A stretch of 64,000 nucleotides of DNA, taken from assembly GCF_014644555.1 (NCBI RefSeq), contig NZ_BMKX01000003.1, positions 124,001-188,000 of the forward strand, given 5' to 3'. This document shows, piece after piece, positions 1,578 through 46,714 of this stretch (positions within the stretch are counted from its first letter, which is position 1; the number at the start of each line of letters is the position of its first letter). The translations under genes were made by a program, and so were the position numbers. A model generated the notes under the pieces. That model did no database searches. It saw nothing but the letters and a program-made list of their open reading frames with translations, and was not told the origin of the DNA. Source of the DNA: Glutamicibacter ardleyensis. Lineage in GTDB: Bacteria; Actinomycetota; Actinomycetes; Actinomycetales; Micrococcaceae.

Positions 1578-1601
1578 AAGCTGCTCAGTGTTGAGCGGCT
1601 T
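1578..1601 (-). terminator. Hairpin with T-rich tail ahead of the methylase gene
   Basis: AAGCTGCTCA / TGAGCGGCTT arms (10 bp, one G-U pair) with a 4-nt loop. Read leftwards it is followed by TTTTCTTATA, so it has intrinsic-terminator form. It overlaps the last codons of the upstream gene and lies just before the methylase ribosome-binding site. It belongs to a recurring hairpin family in this prophage (also 5715-5738 and 9440-9463). Confidence 0.6.
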
Positions 1602-2055
1602 GCAGTGATTTGATTGCTTGCTTTACAGCTTCGACTCCCGCTGGATTCGCTGGCGTTGCCGGGGTCATCCGTTTGCCTAGCATGTTGTCGGGGCGTAGGC
1701 CGGTTTTTATGTCGGCCCAGCAGCATGGGCAGCTATGCGCTTCGAACGTTGAGTGTTCTTCGCACAATGGGCGAGGTGCGCTCTGGTAGCCCTTGCCAGC
1801 GGGTGCAGTGTCATCCCAGAACCGCGAGGGCTCGTGGATGAATCCCGGTGTCTGCTTGACGTATTCACCTCCACCGCTGGTTGCTGTGGCGTATGCAACT
1901 GCCGCTCTGATCGCATGGTTGAAATCGTGTGCGGGTAGTCCGTTTCCTTGGTTGGCGGTTTGCAGGATTTTCGAGATGCTTGCGATTGCCCATTCAGGTC
2001 TTGATGCATTGATGATCACTGCCAGCCGTTCGCCTTGTGAGCGTGTGAGTATCAT
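1585..2055 (-). CDS. Phage protein of unknown function with C-terminal CxxC
   Basis: 156 aa from ATG at 2055. An in-frame TTG lies four codons upstream but falls inside the TTGGAGA ribosome-binding site, so the ATG, six bases after GGAGA, is the better start. The protein is mostly helical in character with a central Gly-rich SGGGEY stretch and a CEEH...HSCPCC cluster around residues 98-112 that could hold zinc. I recognise no family. It sits between the candidate origin region and the methylase and is probably co-transcribed leftwards. Confidence 0.75.
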   Translation of the reverse strand: MILTRSQGERLAVIINASRPEWAIASISKILQTANQGNGLPAHDFNHAIRAAVAYATATSGGGEYVKQTPGFIHEPSRFWDDTAPAGKGYQSAPRPLCEEHSTFEAHSCPCCWADIKTGLRPDNMLGKRMTPATPANPAGVEAVKQAIKSLQAAQH

Positions 2056-2071
2056 TTTTGTCTCCAATAAT

Positions 2072-2124
2072 CAGCAGCAATTTGTTGCGTCCGTCGCGTT
2101 AACTTACGCAACGATTTGCTGCTG
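2072..2124. repeat. 19-bp imperfect inverted repeat in the intergenic region
   Basis: Arms at 2072-2090 and 2106-2124 (CAGCAGCAATTTGTTGCGT and ACGCAACGATTTGCTGCTG) match at 17 of 19 positions around a 15-nt spacer. No T-run follows on either side, so this is not a simple terminator. It lies 17 bases upstream of the start of the 1585-2055 gene and next to the phased repeats at 2223-2285. It could be an operator, an mRNA structure, or part of a replication origin. Confidence 0.6.
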
Positions 2125-2186
2125 ACTTTCTTTGAATTGATGACCAAAAAACTTACTAAGCTATCGACGCTACGTAAGTAGTTAAT

Positions 2187-2214
2187 GGTGTTGGTGTTGG
2201 TGTTGGTGTTGGTG
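2187..2214. repeat. GGTGTT hexamer tandem repeat (4.7 copies)
   Basis: Four perfect GGTGTT units and a partial fifth (GGTG) lie head to tail. A 6-bp tandem in non-coding phage DNA, flanked by an A/T-rich stretch (2128-2160) and by the TGCTA array, is consistent with an origin region; by itself it could be a neutral microsatellite. Confidence 0.9.
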
Positions 2215-2222
2215 CCACTTTT

Positions 2223-2285
2223 TGCTAGACGTTTGCTACGTGGCTTGCTACTAGTCCTGCTGTAGCACCTGCTAGACGTTTGCTA
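2223..2285. repeat. Phased TGCTA repeat array, candidate iterons of the prophage origin
   Basis: TGCTA occurs at 2223, 2234, 2246, 2270 and 2281, with TGCTG at 2258: six units at intervals of 11 to 12 bp, roughly one helical turn each. The longer unit TGCTAGACGTTTGCTA occurs twice (2223-2238 and 2270-2285). The array starts at the stop codon of the replisome-organiser gene, the classical position for initiator-bound iterons. The repeats are seen directly; the origin role is inference. Confidence 0.6.
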
Positions 2286-2675
2286 GGCTTGAGGGTTCTC
2301 GCACCAATAACACCCAGGCTTCACGATCCCTTGATTTGTATGGTTTTTCGTGTGCCCACCAAGCGCCCCAGCAACAGATTTGTTCGACTTGTGTTGCAGA
2401 ATTTCCTTCTTCGATTTCTGGTGCTTCAAGTAGTCATGCATTGCGTAGTCTTCGCCCTTTTTATCTACCCAACCCACTTTGAGAAGCTGCTCTTTCACCT
2501 TCTGCGGGTATTCGTCGAACACCCATGAGTCCACGTGCCCATCGGTCATGAACTCGTTGCAATGCGCCCAAAGTTCCAGCAACGTCACACGTGCTTCAAA
2601 GTTGAGTCGCCGGAACTTTGGGTGTCGAAAGAGTTCGTTGGTGACCGCAATATATGGCCGCGTATCTCTGGACAC
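2283..2675 (-). CDS. Replisome organiser / phage replication initiation protein (winged-helix type)
   Basis: 130 aa. The opening resembles phage replisome-organiser and DnaD-N-like proteins, with a Y-I-A-V-x-N-x-L-F-R-H-P-K-F-R-R-L pattern followed by a helix and E-F-M-T-D-G-H-V. The middle holds G-W-V-D and M-H-D-Y-L-K-H-Q-K-S-K, also frequent in these proteins. The C-terminus has CYWC, a possible metal site. Such proteins bind origin repeats and recruit the replicative helicase or loader. It lies just downstream of the phage clamp gene (10-bp gap) and directly upstream of the phased repeats, which fits an initiator-origin pair. Assigned by sequence pattern and context. Confidence 0.65.
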   Translation of the reverse strand: MSRDTRPYIAVTNELFRHPKFRRLNFEARVTLLELWAHCNEFMTDGHVDSWVFDEYPQKVKEQLLKVGWVDKKGEDYAMHDYLKHQKSKKEILQHKSNKSVAGALGGHTKNHTNQGIVKPGCYWCENPQA

Positions 2676-2685
2676 TTAGAAGCTC

Positions 2686-3783
2686 CTATTGGTTTGGTAG
2701 GCGTATCGGCATGAGTAGGTATCGGCTAGTGCCGTCGCCTGGCTCGATAGTCGCTGGCTTCGCGCCTGCTGGCGAAAGCTTCACCTGATCCGTGTCGATG
2801 GATCGAAGAACGGTCAGGAGGAATCTTGGGTTGAATGCAAGAATGAACTCTTCGTAAGAGTCAGTTTCGATAGCTACTGACGCGGCGTTGTCGCCGCCGC
2901 CAGCGTCGAGCACGATCATCGAATCTTTGGCAGTGAGGCGCACAGGCGTGTTTCGTTCAGCTATAACGCTTACCGCGTCAACAGCGTCGATGAGTTCTTT
3001 GCGGTCGATGGTGTGGGTGTCGGTGCTCGCGTTGGTGAAGAGCGCCCGAACCTTCGGGTAGTCGCCACTGAGTAGGCTGATACTGCTTGTGTACGGGCCA
3101 GAGGTGACACCGATCCGCGATGGCTCGCCGCCGTCCATGCTGATGTGTAGGGTGGTTTCCCCTGCGATGGTTTTGGATATGTTTTTGAGCCAGTCCGTTG
3201 AGACGGTTGCGGAGATTTTCATTTCCGCGTTTGGTTCCCAGTTGGTGTAGTCGGTACCGATCTTGTACCGATCAGTAGCCATACCGTCGATCCGCTCCCC
3301 CAATTCAAGGTGGATGCTTTTCAACACCGGCAGGGCTTCGTCTGTTGAGGCGCATCCTTCGAGTGCGTGGATGAGTTTGGAGAACTCGTTGCCGTTGATG
3401 GTGCCGATATCTTCGGGGGTGCCGTTGAGGTTCTTCGGGTATTCGCTGGCGGGCATTATTGGCATTTCAAACTTCATTGAGCCTTGAGAAAGGTACGCAC
3501 GGTCTGATTCGACGCGCACAGTCACCGGCTTCTTCGATTTGAACTTGTTGACGGCTAGTCCAAGCATCTGCCCATATAGAAGTGCTCGGCCAGGCTGCTC
3601 AACGTCTACTGTCACGGCAACTCTTGAATAGCGTAGGTAATCCGATCCGCTGGCGCGTAGCTCGTGCGGTTGAACTTCGAGCAGTACGGCGCTCATGATT
3701 GGCGAGGTGGGCCGGGAGGCGATTGCGGTTTGTGCGAAGCGTACGGCTTCTTTGAGGTCTGCGGGGTCGATAGAGAACTTCAT
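2686..3783 (-). CDS. dnaN: Phage-encoded DNA polymerase III beta subunit (sliding clamp)
   Basis: 365 aa, the normal size for a bacterial beta clamp with three repeated domains. The start (MKFSIDPADLKEAVRFA), the central G-x-x-x-M-A-T-D-R-Y-K stretch and the C-terminal RYLLMPIRLPNQ, matching the clamp P-M-R/I-L end, are diagnostic. A clamp encircles DNA and tethers polymerase. As this copy lies inside the prophage early operon, not next to dnaA/recF, it is a phage clamp, presumably loaded by the host clamp loader or replacing the host clamp on phage forks. No phage polymerase is visible in the window. Start ATG at 3783 follows TAGGAAAACG. Confidence 0.93.
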   Translation of the reverse strand: MKFSIDPADLKEAVRFAQTAIASRPTSPIMSAVLLEVQPHELRASGSDYLRYSRVAVTVDVEQPGRALLYGQMLGLAVNKFKSKKPVTVRVESDRAYLSQGSMKFEMPIMPASEYPKNLNGTPEDIGTINGNEFSKLIHALEGCASTDEALPVLKSIHLELGERIDGMATDRYKIGTDYTNWEPNAEMKISATVSTDWLKNISKTIAGETTLHISMDGGEPSRIGVTSGPYTSSISLLSGDYPKVRALFTNASTDTHTIDRKELIDAVDAVSVIAERNTPVRLTAKDSMIVLDAGGGDNAASVAIETDSYEEFILAFNPRFLLTVLRSIDTDQVKLSPAGAKPATIEPGDGTSRYLLMPIRLPNQ

Positions 3784-5756: not shown

Positions 5757-6290
5757 TTAGAACGGCGGTTCATTTGCGCCTGGGTTGCCCCAACCGCCAC
5801 CGTTGTTCTGTTGTGGTTGCGACTGACCACCTCCTGTGCTCCACGGGTCATTGTTTGGCGCGTTCCAGCCTCCACCTTGCTGTGGCTGCTGTTGCGTGTT
5901 GTTGCCCCAGCCGGGTCCTGGCTGATGAGTGTTCGCGCTCGTTTGATTAGTCGCGCCGGCACTACGACCACTTGGAGGGGTAAGGATTTGGACACCCCAC
6001 GCGGTCACGTCTAAGCTCACGCCCGGCCCGTTCTTGCCCTCGTACTGGCGCATGTAGAATTCGCCAGTGATCTTGACGCGAACGCCCTTAGATAGTTTGT
6101 CGCCAAGGAATTCGGCGAGGCTCCCCCACACCGTGACGTTTAGCCACTGCTCGGCAACTTTTTCCCAATCGTCACCCTTCTTCTTGGACTTCGAATCAGC
6201 CATGCGAAAGTTCAACACAGGCGAACCACTTGGCGTATACCTGATTTCTGAATCCGCGCCAAGGTTGCCTGTTGCAACTATTTCAGCCAT
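5757..6290 (-). CDS. ssb: Single-stranded DNA-binding protein
   Basis: 177 aa. Residues 1-110 form the OB fold (start MAEIVATGNLGADSEIRYTP; later W-L-N-V-T-V-W-G and G-V-R-V-K-I-T-G-E-F). The remainder is a Gly/Gln/Asn/Pro-rich linker and the extreme C-terminus is ANEPPF, the acidic-PPF peptide that binds replication and repair partners (less acidic than the usual D-D-D-x-P-F). It would coat ssDNA during phage replication and annealing. Its start shares a base with the stop of the upstream ATPase (TAATG), so the two are coupled, consistent with Sak4-SSB partnership. Confidence 0.95.
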   Translation of the reverse strand: MAEIVATGNLGADSEIRYTPSGSPVLNFRMADSKSKKKGDDWEKVAEQWLNVTVWGSLAEFLGDKLSKGVRVKITGEFYMRQYEGKNGPGVSLDVTAWGVQILTPPSGRSAGATNQTSANTHQPGPGWGNNTQQQPQQGGGWNAPNNDPWSTGGGQSQPQQNNGGGWGNPGANEPPF

Positions 6291-7204
6291 TAGTTTGCTC
6301 CAAACCGGGCTGACTGCCCTTGGATAGATTGCAGTACATCGCCAGTCGCTCCGGCGGCTTGCGCTTCCCCGTAGAGTGCGCGTAGCTCGTCAACTGAGCT
6401 GGCACTGTTCGCCCGGTTCAACCAATGGTCGGGGTCGTTGGCTTCGCTGGCCTCAGTGGGTGCCGTAGCCGAATGCTGGCGTGGTGCCACGTTTTGAGGT
6501 TCCGCAAATCCGAACTTCACCCATAAGTCCTCAAGAGTAAAGTTCTCAATGGGGCGACGCTCCCCCAAAGGAATGTCATGCCGAAGAGATCTAGCGCCCG
6601 TAACCTCGGCACGACCGCGAGCTAGGAACTCAACAATCACCCCCACATCGAACGGCAAGGTCTTGTGCCCCTGGGGCTTCCAAGTTTTTTCCTTGGTTGG
6701 TTTGCCGTTCACGATTACTGTCACTTCGTTGAGCCTCGCGGTAAGAACCACCGGCCCGTTGTGAGCGCGCAAAGCTTCGATTACGCGCTTCCATTTATTG
6801 CCAGCTTTGTTCCACAGCTCCATCGTGATTTGCCCGGTGTTGAACTGTCGAGCATCCGCTACTCGCTGCGCTTCCTCTGTGAGAAGTTCCCAGATCATTG
6901 AAGCGGAGTCGATGACAATCATGTTCGGTCGAGCCGGGTTGGACGGTTCAGCAACAGCCGCTTGCACTGCGCCGAGAATGCTCTTGTAGCTTCCATCATG
7001 AACAACGATTTCAAATCGAGCGCCCGGCAGTTGACCGTATTCGTCGGGATCATCCTCGCCAATGCTGATCCAGAAAGTTCGGTCGATCAGTTGAGATGAG
7101 GACGCTACAGCACATGAATAAGATTTTCCGGCCTTTTCGATGCCCGCAATAAGCATGATCGGCCAAGGCGGTTTGCCTGTTGGTTGGCGTGTCTGAATAG
7201 CCAT
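6290..7204 (-). CDS. Sak4-like RecA-fold ATPase (phage single-strand annealing/recombination)
   Basis: 304 aa. A Walker A motif G-I-E-K-A-G-K-S-Y is at residues 21-29, and a Walker B-like strand M-I-V-I-D-S-A near residue 95. The domain is a RecA-like AAA_24 nucleotide-binding core, as in phage Sak4 proteins, which work with SSB in annealing-type recombination. A QGHKTLPFDVG segment follows, and the C-terminal 60 residues look like a linker with a small helical tail. Adjacent genes (SSB downstream; PD-(D/E)XK exonuclease upstream) give the exonuclease-annealase-SSB arrangement. Confidence 0.8.
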   Translation of the reverse strand: MAIQTRQPTGKPPWPIMLIAGIEKAGKSYSCAVASSSQLIDRTFWISIGEDDPDEYGQLPGARFEIVVHDGSYKSILGAVQAAVAEPSNPARPNMIVIDSASMIWELLTEEAQRVADARQFNTGQITMELWNKAGNKWKRVIEALRAHNGPVVLTARLNEVTVIVNGKPTKEKTWKPQGHKTLPFDVGVIVEFLARGRAEVTGARSLRHDIPLGERRPIENFTLEDLWVKFGFAEPQNVAPRQHSATAPTEASEANDPDHWLNRANSASSVDELRALYGEAQAAGATGDVLQSIQGQSARFGAN

Positions 7205-8164
7205 TTAGCCCTCCACTGTTTCTAGAATTTTTGCTTCGGTGAATGGTCGCGGATCCAGAGGTTCGCGCCGCTGATGCCCCGGCCAGATTCCTGACTCATG
7301 GCATTGCTGCCAAAGGTCGGTGGCTCTCCTGTTCATCCCGCGGCCTAGTCCTCGGAAATACTCGGTGATTGAATAGACTGCGACGCGGTAGGGTGCCGAC
7401 GATTCGCACACAATGAATTTGAATGCGTGCTTTTCGCCGGTCACTGATTCCACAATGTCGGCGTAGAACGGATCTTGCTGGTAGTACCCGTAGTTTTCGA
7501 CGGACTTCAAAAAGCCTTCGCGTGAAGCGTCTTTGTCTGATTTCAAATCCGCGAGGAAACCATTGCCCCAAATGTCGGGGCGGCATCGAGCCGGCACGCC
7601 GTTGAGTTCACCGAATACTGATGCCTCAATCTGCGCCGCGCTCTCGATGATTTGGCGCGCTTCATAATCAGCCATGACCGATTCGCGCATTTCCTTGATG
7701 ACGGTCAGTTCATGAGCGAGCATCGGGATATTTCCAGCCGAGATAACTTCGTCGCGTTCCTCTTGCGCTGCCTTGGTTCGGTAGTTTTCATAGTCGAGTT
7801 CGACCACCGCACCGAATGTGCTTTCGAGCGTGTACGAATGGAAAACTGTGCCCATGTCGAACACCTTTTTGTGTTCTTGGCCCTTGTCGAGGTTGTGGCG
7901 CAACAATGCGGGGCCACCATCTTGAACGATGGTTTTCGCCATTGTCGAACTGATTACGTCCTTGTGCGAGTGGTAATCAGCATTCGTCATATCCAAGTAG
8001 ATTCCGGGTTCCATTTTTACCGGTTCCTGGCTGACTACTACTGGCACAGGCTGCGACTTCACTGCAACCTTTGCTGGCTTCGGTTCGGTGAACGTCTTGG
8101 ATACGACTGCGGGTGGTGTCTCCGGTTTTGGAGTTGCCACCCGAGCCCCTGTCTTGATAACCAT
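7205..8164 (-). CDS. RecE-like PD-(D/E)XK exonuclease
   Basis: 319 aa. After a Pro/Val-rich N-terminal tail of about 50 residues comes G-I-Y-L-D-M-T-N-A-D-Y-H-S-H, then K-V-F-D-M-G-T-V-F-H, E-A-S-V-F-G-E-L-N-G, C-R-P-D-I-W and A-D-L-K-S-D-K-D-A-S: the order of motifs of the exonuclease VIII/DUF3799 branch of PD-(D/E)XK nucleases, with catalytic D (RPDIW), D-x-K (DLK) and a YYQQ box. It would resect duplex ends 5' to 3' to supply ssDNA for the Sak4-like annealase. Start ATG 8164 overlaps the upstream stop by one base. Confidence 0.85.
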   Translation of the reverse strand: MVIKTGARVATPKPETPPAVVSKTFTEPKPAKVAVKSQPVPVVVSQEPVKMEPGIYLDMTNADYHSHKDVISSTMAKTIVQDGGPALLRHNLDKGQEHKKVFDMGTVFHSYTLESTFGAVVELDYENYRTKAAQEERDEVISAGNIPMLAHELTVIKEMRESVMADYEARQIIESAAQIEASVFGELNGVPARCRPDIWGNGFLADLKSDKDASREGFLKSVENYGYYQQDPFYADIVESVTGEKHAFKFIVCESSAPYRVAVYSITEYFRGLGRGMNRRATDLWQQCHESGIWPGHQRREPLDPRPFTEAKILETVEG

Positions 8165-9351
8165 TACGCTAGTTCTCCGTCTACTAGTCGGAACTCGTGG
8201 TCTTCGGAATCAGACACGAATTCAACAAATGCTTGGAAGTTGTTCTCTTCGCACATGGACTGGAGCACCTGCAATGAGCGCTCATCCATGACGTTGCCGT
8301 TGCGGATAACCATCGTGCGCACTTCTGGGTCGGTGGCGATAATCATTGCCGCGCTGACAATGATCTGCTCAGCGCCGGATGCCCGCGAGAACGGCACGCC
8401 TTGGTACAGCACGCCTTCTTCATCGAAAGACAGTCCTTCGACGGGCATTTCTGCAGTTGCGAGTCCATCGGCTTTACGCTTCTGCACTTCCTTAATCTGC
8501 GCATCGAATGAAGCCCATTCGCTGAGCAATTTGTCCTTGCGTGCAACTTGTTCACGAGCCGAGTTGTTTGCTCGGATAGCCGAGTTGGAAGCCTCGGCAT
8601 TGTTGATCTGCGCTTGGAGAGATTCAAGCTCCACGCGGTCAGGGGCGGCTTTCAATACTTCGCCAGCCGTCTTCAAGCTTTCCTTTGCTTTGATCAATTG
8701 GCGCTCAAGAACCGTCACGTATTCGGTAGCGGCTTCCACACCATCAAGTGCAGCATCGAGCTGTGCATTGGATTCCTGTCCGGCGCGGTACTGGATGATC
8801 AATTCATTCAGACTGACTTCATCGGTTGGAATGTTCGCGTCCACATCGAAGTCACCGATCACCTTGGCCTGCTGTCCGGCCAATAGTCGCTTAGCTTCCA
8901 GAGCCTTGATTTCAGAATCAAGTTCAGCAGGAACAAACGGCAATTCCACGATACTCAGCAACGTTTCAAGCTGCTTCTTCTCGCCAGCCATGATGAACGA
9001 TGCAGCATCAACACCGAGAACGCTCAACGCCTGGTCAAGGTCACGCTGCCCTAGCTTGTCACCATTAGCTTTCTTGCCCGTAAGCGTGGGGCCGGACGGG
9101 GTGAACTTCTGGTGGAGCTGTGTGCCGTCGGTCAGCTTGATCTTGATATCTGCTCGCCCTGCACCGTCTCGGATCGGGCGCTTGATGAACTTCGCATTGA
9201 ACTTGCAGAACCCGGTCTCGATAGCATCTAGGATGCTGGTCTTACCTGCCGCGTTCTTCCCGAATAGCAGGATGACGCTGTTGGTTGGTTCGATCTTCAC
9301 TGCGCTGATGCGTTGGAAGTTGGTGATTTCGAGCGATTCGATGGTGCTCAA
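8164..9351 (-). CDS. SMC/RecF-like ABC ATPase (phage recombination)
   Basis: 395 aa from TTG 9351, which has AAGGAGAACAAAA just ahead and overlaps the upstream stop (TTGA). STIESLEITNF and I-L-L-F-G-K-N-A-A-G-K-T-S-I-L-D give the N-terminal strand and Walker A of Rad50/RecF/SMC ATPases. Residues 150-290 are rich in Glu, Ala, Leu and Lys and probably coil. Near the C-terminus come A-S-G-A-E-Q-I-I-V-S-A-A (signature-like) and M-V-I-R-N-G-N-V-M-D-E (Walker B region). It heads the exonuclease-annealase-SSB block and may act with the nuclease as an SbcC-like end-processing partner. Confidence 0.8.
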   Translation of the reverse strand: MSTIESLEITNFQRISAVKIEPTNSVILLFGKNAAGKTSILDAIETGFCKFNAKFIKRPIRDGAGRADIKIKLTDGTQLHQKFTPSGPTLTGKKANGDKLGQRDLDQALSVLGVDAASFIMAGEKKQLETLLSIVELPFVPAELDSEIKALEAKRLLAGQQAKVIGDFDVDANIPTDEVSLNELIIQYRAGQESNAQLDAALDGVEAATEYVTVLERQLIKAKESLKTAGEVLKAAPDRVELESLQAQINNAEASNSAIRANNSAREQVARKDKLLSEWASFDAQIKEVQKRKADGLATAEMPVEGLSFDEEGVLYQGVPFSRASGAEQIIVSAAMIIATDPEVRTMVIRNGNVMDERSLQVLQSMCEENNFQAFVEFVSDSEDHEFRLVDGELA

Positions 9352-9536
9352 TTTTTGTTCTCCTTGGTTTCGGGTGGTTGTTTTCCGAAGATTGCCCAGA
9401 GTAGGCGTTCTTCGGGTGTCAGGTTTTCTGGCATAAGAAAAGCCGAATCGTCTGATTCGGCTTGGTCGGTGATCGGGGCGCAACAACCGCAGTTCTGGTC
9501 GCAGTGTCTCTGGTAGGGGTGCGGATAACTGCTCAT
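9348..9536 (-). CDS. 62-aa Cys-containing phage protein
   Basis: Overlaps both neighbours by four bases (ATGA at 9533-9536; TTGA at 9348-9351). CDQNCGCC near residues 12-19 may bind metal; the C-terminal half (T-P-E-E-R-L-L-W-A-I-F) is helical. A perfect 10-bp hairpin (9440-9463) lies inside the reading frame, so an internal ATG at 9434 could make a 28-aa C-terminal form independent of the hairpin. Function unknown. Confidence 0.6.
   Translation of the reverse strand: MSSYPHPYQRHCDQNCGCCAPITDQAESDDSAFLMPENLTPEERLLWAIFGKQPPETKENKN
9440..9463 (-). terminator. Terminator-like hairpin inside a small gene
   Basis: AAGCCGAATC / GATTCGGCTT, perfect 10-bp stem, 4-nt loop, followed leftwards by TTTTCTTATG. 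Same form as 1578-1601 and 5715-5738. Because it falls within a frame that is open on both sides, it may act as an attenuator. Confidence 0.6.
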
Positions 9537-46520: not shown

Positions 46521-46658
46521 GGAAATAGTCTAGTCCTCGCTCGTCGGTGCGCGCCTGGGCAGTACGCGGTAGTCGCTGCGACCTAGAACCTCCGGCCGAA
46601 GTATTTAGTACAGTCTAGTAAACCCGCGTTGACTTGCAAAAAATACAACGAATACAGG

Positions 46659-46704
46659 GTAAAAGGGTATCGCCCGGCCTGTTGGCCGGGCGATGCCCTT
46701 TTAC
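46659..46704. terminator. Terminator after the bkd operon
   Basis: 21-bp stem with one mismatch (GTAAAAGGGTATCGCCCGGCC and its partner) and a 4-nt loop. Leftwards the T-rich part is inside the stem base. Confidence 0.75.
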
Positions 46705-46714
46705 TTACTTCCGA

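Follow-up and report, generated by a model that had tools for sequence, protein, structure and literature searches.

The stretch analysed here (hereafter the window) comprises 64,000 nucleotides of a Glutamicibacter ardleyensis contig and carries replication genes of a prophage, whose terminase and portal genes lie to the left of the window. A gene encoding an initiator-like protein of 130 amino acids is followed on its own strand by an array of short repeats, a hexamer tract, an A/T-rich stretch, a large hairpin and a gene for a 156-aa protein, which is called loader-like by position only (Table 1). On the other side of the initiator-like gene lie genes for a sliding clamp and a single-strand binding protein (SSB), both recognised by Pfam, in agreement with the claim of the initial annotation that the phage brings its own clamp and SSB. 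The prophage proteins scanned, which cover a subset of the open reading frames, include no recognisable replicative helicase. Directly downstream of the loader-like gene, at 183–1553, is a gene for a C5-cytosine methyltransferase (Pfam PF00145, E 3.6e-25), and a recombination set, consisting of a Sak4-like AAA protein, an exonuclease VIII-like protein (DUF3799) and an SbcC/RecF-like ATPase, occupies 6290–9486. On the host contig to the left of the window, a gene at L187:14091–14621 matches PHROG 8643, 'DNA polymerase/primase' (E 1.4e-56); it sits between a small-terminase-like gene and other early genes, and its product might prime at the origin.

Table 1. Features of the candidate origin region and neighbouring replication genes (window coordinates).
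Feature	Position	Strand	Remarks
Downstream gene, 156 aa, loader-like by position only	1585..2055	-	C98, H101, C109 and C112 nearly invariant
Large hairpin, 20-bp arms	2071..2125	-	Fold; stem complementarity across 41 loci
Constant hairpin core, ATCGTTGCGTAAGTTAACGCG	2095..2115	-	Overlooked by the initial annotation
A/T-rich stretch between tract and hairpin, candidate unwinding element	2125..2164	.	Lowest GC of the region
Second imperfect inverted repeat past the tract	arms 2151-2161 / 2169-2179	.	82% complementary; overlooked by the initial annotation
Hexamer tract, (ACCAAC)n on gene strand	2186..2214	-	Adjoins array; only perfect period-6 run of at least 18 nt in window
Iteron array, six AGCA words (on gene strand five TAGCA, one CAGCA)	2223..2285	-	Words 11-12 bp apart
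Dyad within array, facing half-sites TAGCA and TGCTA separated by cc, TAGCACCTGCTA	2263..2274	.	Overlooked by the initial annotation
Initiator-like gene, 130 aa, short form	2283..2675	-	N-terminal domain and H-x3-H / C-x2-C cluster; PHROG match
Phage sliding clamp, DNA polymerase III beta	2686..3783	-	Pfam PF00712, E 3.3e-24; PHROG 947, E 1.3e-57
Phage single-strand binding protein	5757..6290	-	Pfam PF00436, E 1.1e-20

Two PHROG profiles that carry the name 'replication initiation protein' matched the 130-aa protein: 3926 (E 4.8e-24, over profile positions 2–127 of 312) and 2447 (E 5.4e-12). These names are annotations and not tests; the matches support the earlier description of the gene as initiator-like. 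Pfam gave no match at its curated cut-off, and its family Phage_rep_org_N (PF09681) was weakly matched by three of 44 aligned relatives (best E 0.0017), the window protein not being among them. The protein ends at position 127 of the 312 of PHROG 3926 and contains no C-terminal DnaD/O-like domain; near its end, residues H108, H112, C122 and C125 are nearly invariant among 44 aligned short relatives, which suggests that this cluster may be a metal-binding end replacing the usual C-terminal domain. A long relative from a genome of the same order (L003) matches on its C-terminal side PHROG 2514 (DnaD-like, E 1.3e-21) and PHROG 391 (O-like, E 5.2e-20), consistent with the idea that the short forms moved or lost a helicase-recruiting part. 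Words of the form GAAGCAAA, a tract of CCCGTA and a perfect palindrome of the TATTTATATC type all lie inside the gene of this long initiator (L003:976–1833). Structure models were obtained for the initiator-like protein (pLDDT 93.0, pTM 0.76) and, also with confidence, for the 156-aa protein (pLDDT 93.5, pTM 0.65). Fold searches with the first returned no significant match; the second had none in the PDB or in a viral structure library, its best PDB Foldseek match having an E of 2.7 and not being gp39, and the 156-aa window protein had no Pfam match. Structure thus backs neither the DNA-binding mode of the initiator nor the role of the loader-like protein.

The iteron units reported in the initial annotation were confirmed, with TGCTA at 2223, 2234, 2246, 2270 and 2281, TGCTG at 2258, and successive spacings of 11, 12, 12, 12 and 11 bp; the stop codon of the 130-aa gene (2283–2285) lies inside the last TGCTA unit, which reads TAGCA on the gene strand. 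The array had been described as phased: its spacing is indeed regular, but it is not exactly one helical turn. Chains of at least four exact 5-mers are absent from the window because one unit is TGCTG, and 4-mers were used instead. Apart from the six TGCT words, the 64 kb contain no chain of at least four identical 4-mers at 11–12 bp. In 100 order-2 Markov copies of the window the mean number of chains with at least four members was 0.02, and no chain reached five. A longer coding repeat, with the frame open beyond the TAG stop, was considered and rejected, as the period of 11–12 bp is out of codon phase and the frame is not kept by the next-closest relatives. A DNA-level search of phage records produced small matches only.

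The GGTGTT tandem beside the array was likewise found as described, and is the sole perfect period-6 run of at least 18 nt in the window; three consecutive GGTGTT units occur at a single site in the 3.9-Mb host genome, namely this tract. The nearby A/T-rich stretch also stood up to analysis, with 27.5% GC, a value as low or lower being reached in 25 of the 63,960 40-bp windows. The inverted repeat reported at 2072–2124 with 19-bp arms is present and slightly longer, consisting of two 20-nt arms (2071–2090 and 2106–2125), complementary at 18 of 20 positions, and a 15-nt loop. Inverted repeats with 20-nt arms and at most two mismatches occur at seven places in the 64 kb, this one included, so that the hairpin is unremarkable in itself and its significance comes from conservation. 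Another near-perfect inverted repeat with 20-nt arms, at 46658–46705 between host genes, is probably a terminator. A terminator reading of the hairpin was rejected: in the window one T-run follows the second inverted repeat (2151–2179), and reading the relatives by eye showed no such rule.

Related loci were collected from IMG/VR (11 by one protein search, 73 and 64 by two alignment-based searches), from GTDB genomes (8) and from phage records. The latter gave 44 matches (33 in Arthrobacter, 10 in Gordonia and one in Glutamicibacter), 12 of these 44 initiator records being used together with one locus found via the downstream gene; loci from relatives of the host were added. Removal of near-copies (>90% identity over 60 residues) left 86 loci, window included, in all of which the DNA behind the initiator domain was read. 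According to how far the frame extends beyond the domain, 54 were classed as short and 32 as long forms. Arrays and tracts were sought in the 260 nt behind the domain, for which 83 of the 86 loci were long enough, and in 1562 control segments from the same loci; since the loci are related, the counts that follow are not counts of independent events. Chains of at least three identical 4-mers at 9–14 bp spacing were found in 78 of 83 loci versus 296 of 1562 controls, chains of at least four in 36 versus 23, and chains of at least five in 24 versus 2; five loci had no chain of three or more. Tracts of period 6 or 7 scored at least 8 in 54 of the 83 loci versus 79 controls and at least 10 in 43 versus 15; the score stayed below 8 in 29 loci, among them the GCGGCA group around phage Faja. 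Dyads of the iteron word were present in 57 of 84 loci versus 247 of 2094 control segments (a 12% background), and an inverted repeat scoring at least 7 followed the tract in 20 of 60 loci versus 70 of 1461 control segments, with 14 of 28 long forms and six of 32 short forms having one; the ungapped score of the window's own repeat is 5.

The iteron word varies by lineage (TAGCAA, TAAGCA, CAAGCA, GCGATCGCA, GTGGCAA, GCGGCAA, GAAGCAA and others), as does the 6–7 bp unit of the tract (ACCAAC, ACCATTA, GACAGA, GATACA). In short initiators the array starts no earlier than the stop codon, which in 22 of 53 cases runs on as TAGCA, TAGCG or TAAGC and so forms part of the first word. In long ones it is inside the gene, like ori-lambda in gene O (PMC5043065) and oriL in SPP1 gene 38 (PMC6316719). 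The initial annotation had named absence of the repeats in close relatives with the same initiator gene as a refutation of its reading; this did not come about, as relatives carry an array in the corresponding position, mostly made of a different word. These positions also bear on the proposal that the array is an operator through which the short protein, as a transcriptional autoregulator, controls the downstream gene, replication starting elsewhere. Phage initiators can double as regulators; the window protein is short and winged-helix-like, MarR-type regulators figure among the insignificant fold matches of its model, and the repeats lie between its gene and the next. However, the array of long forms is intragenic and distant from where a promoter would sit, and long-form proteins carry DnaD-like or O-like C-terminal regions, as described above for one of them; a simple scan of 1500–2900, which may not suit this host, found no sigma-70-like promoter. 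This operator reading is considered improbable.

In short forms the tract is non-coding. In long forms it is translated, and codon usage was compared in the 27 of 32 with a tract score of at least 9. Within the tracts all 35 Thr codons were ACA, whereas in the rest of these ORFs 37 of 275 were; all 11 Ile codons were ATA (13 of 218 elsewhere), and all 11 Ala codons were GCA (104 of 712 elsewhere). Codons in one repeat are copies of each other, and a count by locus is fairer: in 19 of 19 informative loci the Thr, Ala and Ile codons of the tract all end in A, which indicates that the DNA itself is constrained. A rival view, that DNA slippage in a protein linker left the repeats behind and that they have no cis function, might draw on the long-form tracts, whose translations are simple repeated dipeptides, for example (DT)n and (ET)n. 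Yet array and tract keep their order in short forms, where neither is coding, the words differ between lineages while spacing and order are constant, and in one genome, described below, word and initiator were exchanged together; slippage on its own is hardly credible as an explanation.

The hairpin contains a constant core within a variable stem. The core (ATCGTCACCTAAGTAACGCG type, at least 75% match) was found in 38 of 52 testable short forms and in none of 904 control segments, and was absent or under threshold in 14; because the reference words were composed once the loci had been seen, the figure of 38 is descriptive, the controls being scored with the same words. IMG/VR was scanned with two 19-mer core patterns, yielding 23 stretches with one match each, of which 18 had the initiator domain upstream, one (L199) proved to be the end of PrincessTrina, a member already known, and two (L180 and L184) had an initiator of another family together with the downstream gene; one pattern, CGTYCAGTNASKTAACGCG, also matched two unrelated A/T-rich stretches (L189 and L195). 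A third pattern gave no stretches. The stem varies freely yet stays complementary: 22 of 41 native arm pairs have at least 10 of their 14 positions paired, versus 41 of 1088 swapped ones, and median gapped scores were 24 for native, 17 for swapped and 15 for shuffled arms. Among 31 distinct arm pairs picked for at least 8 of 14 complementary positions, the six best columns each contained all four pair types, and 170 of their 186 cells were Watson-Crick, with three G-U and three A-C; this preselection raises the percentages, and the comparison of native with swapped arms is the fair one. Four loci of the Klausavirus type keep the core and have no clear stem. Klausavirus phages L015–L019, L023 and L024 retain the core motif with no clear stem and no gene recognisable as loader-like in the next 520 nt, as tested for L015, L016 and L018.

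A relative of the 156-aa protein follows the array within 520 nt in 44 of the 54 short forms and in none of the 32 long forms; four of the ten short forms without it are cut by contig ends. Lying just before this gene, the hairpin could be a leader RNA that controls how the loader-like protein is translated and be unrelated to the origin, in which case the iterons may still be an origin. Folded as RNA with its 5' flank the element is very stable (z -5.69; z -4.57 as single-stranded DNA), and in some relatives (e.g. L007, L021 and L048) the start codon lies in the 3' arm. Rfam gave no match at the gathering score on 1500–2900, only three sub-threshold microRNA matches. The substitutions do not favour G-U over A-C as expected of an RNA stem, with three of each in the 186 cells mentioned above, 16 versus 36 over all 14 columns and 34 versus 61 in a looser count, numbers that are small and not decisive between RNA and DNA. 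The core also persists in loci of the Klausavirus type with no recognised loader-like gene (L015, L016, L018 and L044). Finally, the distance from tract to core (s.d. 10.0) is no looser than that from core to loader-like gene (s.d. 16.7) in the 22 loci other than L012, an outlier on which the distance argument leaned and without which it is weak. A leader RNA is, overall, a real possibility, though short of an even chance.

Exchanges between phages bear on how these elements belong together. In a genome of the same genus (G010), the prophage initiator fell below the search threshold and the locus was found via the hairpin core. This initiator is distant (22% identity over 89 residues; E 2e-9 against the domain profile) and is followed by GATTC words at 11 bp with inverted GAATC copies, a CCCGA tract, the hairpin and a downstream loader-like protein 81% identical to that of the window. 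DNA homology between the two, 79% over 636 columns, extends from window position 2189, inside the tract, to 1558. Initiator and iterons have thus been exchanged together, and hairpin and downstream gene retained. In L180 and L184 (sites around 7.8–8.7 kb and 3.0–3.9 kb, respectively) an initiator of another family (PHROG 8064) comes with TAGCCCC-type repeats and a 7-bp tract, the hairpin core and the downstream gene family being shared with the window. In both instances the iteron word changes along with the initiator. The inverted repeat, which the initial annotation had made part of the initiator layout, is conserved, but goes with the downstream loader-like cassette and not with the initiator. 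The best reading of these comparisons is that the putative origin is composed of two exchangeable cassettes recombining near the tract, one of initiator and iterons and the other of hairpin and loader-like gene. Tentatively, and with more doubt, the hairpin might act as a second cis element. Opening of the origin would expose it as a stem-loop of single-stranded DNA, and the loader-like protein or a primase would dock on its constant loop (CGTCACCTAAGTAACGCG type). The hairpin would then be a previously undescribed element that travels with the loader-like gene while initiators and iterons are exchanged across the tract, a proposal for which the odds are rather against.

Combined, the sequence comparisons indicate that the repeat region is most likely a theta-type replication origin of the prophage, of the lambda O / SPP1 gp38 kind. 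As in iteron-type origins, one word recurs several times at the initiator gene and an A/T-rich element is adjacent. The candidate origin initially proposed here gains support from the position of the array, which is kept in relatives, and from its exchange along with the initiator in G010; activity itself we infer. In such an origin the 130-aa initiator would bind the AGCA iterons, facing itself at the central dyad. Once bound, it would distort the neighbouring DNA and open the A/T-rich stretch between hexamer tract and hairpin, the tract possibly being the strand that is held open. The 156-aa downstream protein would bring the host helicase, and the phage clamp and SSB would join the host replisome.

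If correct, this interpretation assigns a replication origin to many actinophages and to a few other phages, for which, as far as searches show, none has been mapped, and explains how a short initiator manages without the C-terminal domain of its long relatives. The natural swap within one genus would make the specificity of initiator for iteron directly testable, and the hairpin, with its variable stem and constant core, would be a new cis element to test. The same layout with different repeat words in related phages may likewise provide a testable map of replication starts. In the open-licence literature no description of such an array in actinophages was found; subscription journals may hold one.

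Initiator plus iterons is a known kind of origin, and several systems offer comparisons. In the account of phage lambda in PMC5043065, ori-lambda lies within gene O, and, as here, repeated initiator sites lie by an A/T-rich stretch, are tied to the initiator gene and are followed by the next replication gene. By contrast, lambda has four 19-bp inverted-repeat iterons in gene O and the loader P, whereas the window has short words 11–12 bp apart starting from the stop codon, then the tract and the conserved hairpin, and an initiator without the C-terminal domain. For SPP1, PMC6316719 places oriL within gene 38 and describes gp38 as initiator, gp39 as helicase loader and gp40 as helicase; its oriL and oriR share with the window direct repeats and an A/T-rich element, and its initiator gene is followed by a small gene, just as the 156-aa gene comes directly after initiator and putative origin in 44 of 54 short-form loci. 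Unlike SPP1, the prophage had no helicase gene recognised among the proteins scanned, and the PDB search gave its 156-aa protein no match to the gp39 fold. The DnaA-trio of bacterial oriC (PMC10797057) also consists of short repeats between initiator sites and unwinding region, but its triplets, 3'-(G/A)AT-5', were not found in the (ACCAAC)n tract of the window, where units are of 6–7 bp and the initiator is not an AAA+ protein, and the likeness is one of analogy only. Iteron plasmid origins such as those of RK2, F and P1 (PMC5043065, PMC10797057) resemble the window in their direct repeats, initiator and A/T-rich unwinding region, and differ from its phage setting, shorter words, tract and hairpin. 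The new traits of this variant are a short initiator with its stop codon inside the array, the relation between arrays inside and after the gene, a constrained tract, and a hairpin that travels with the downstream gene.
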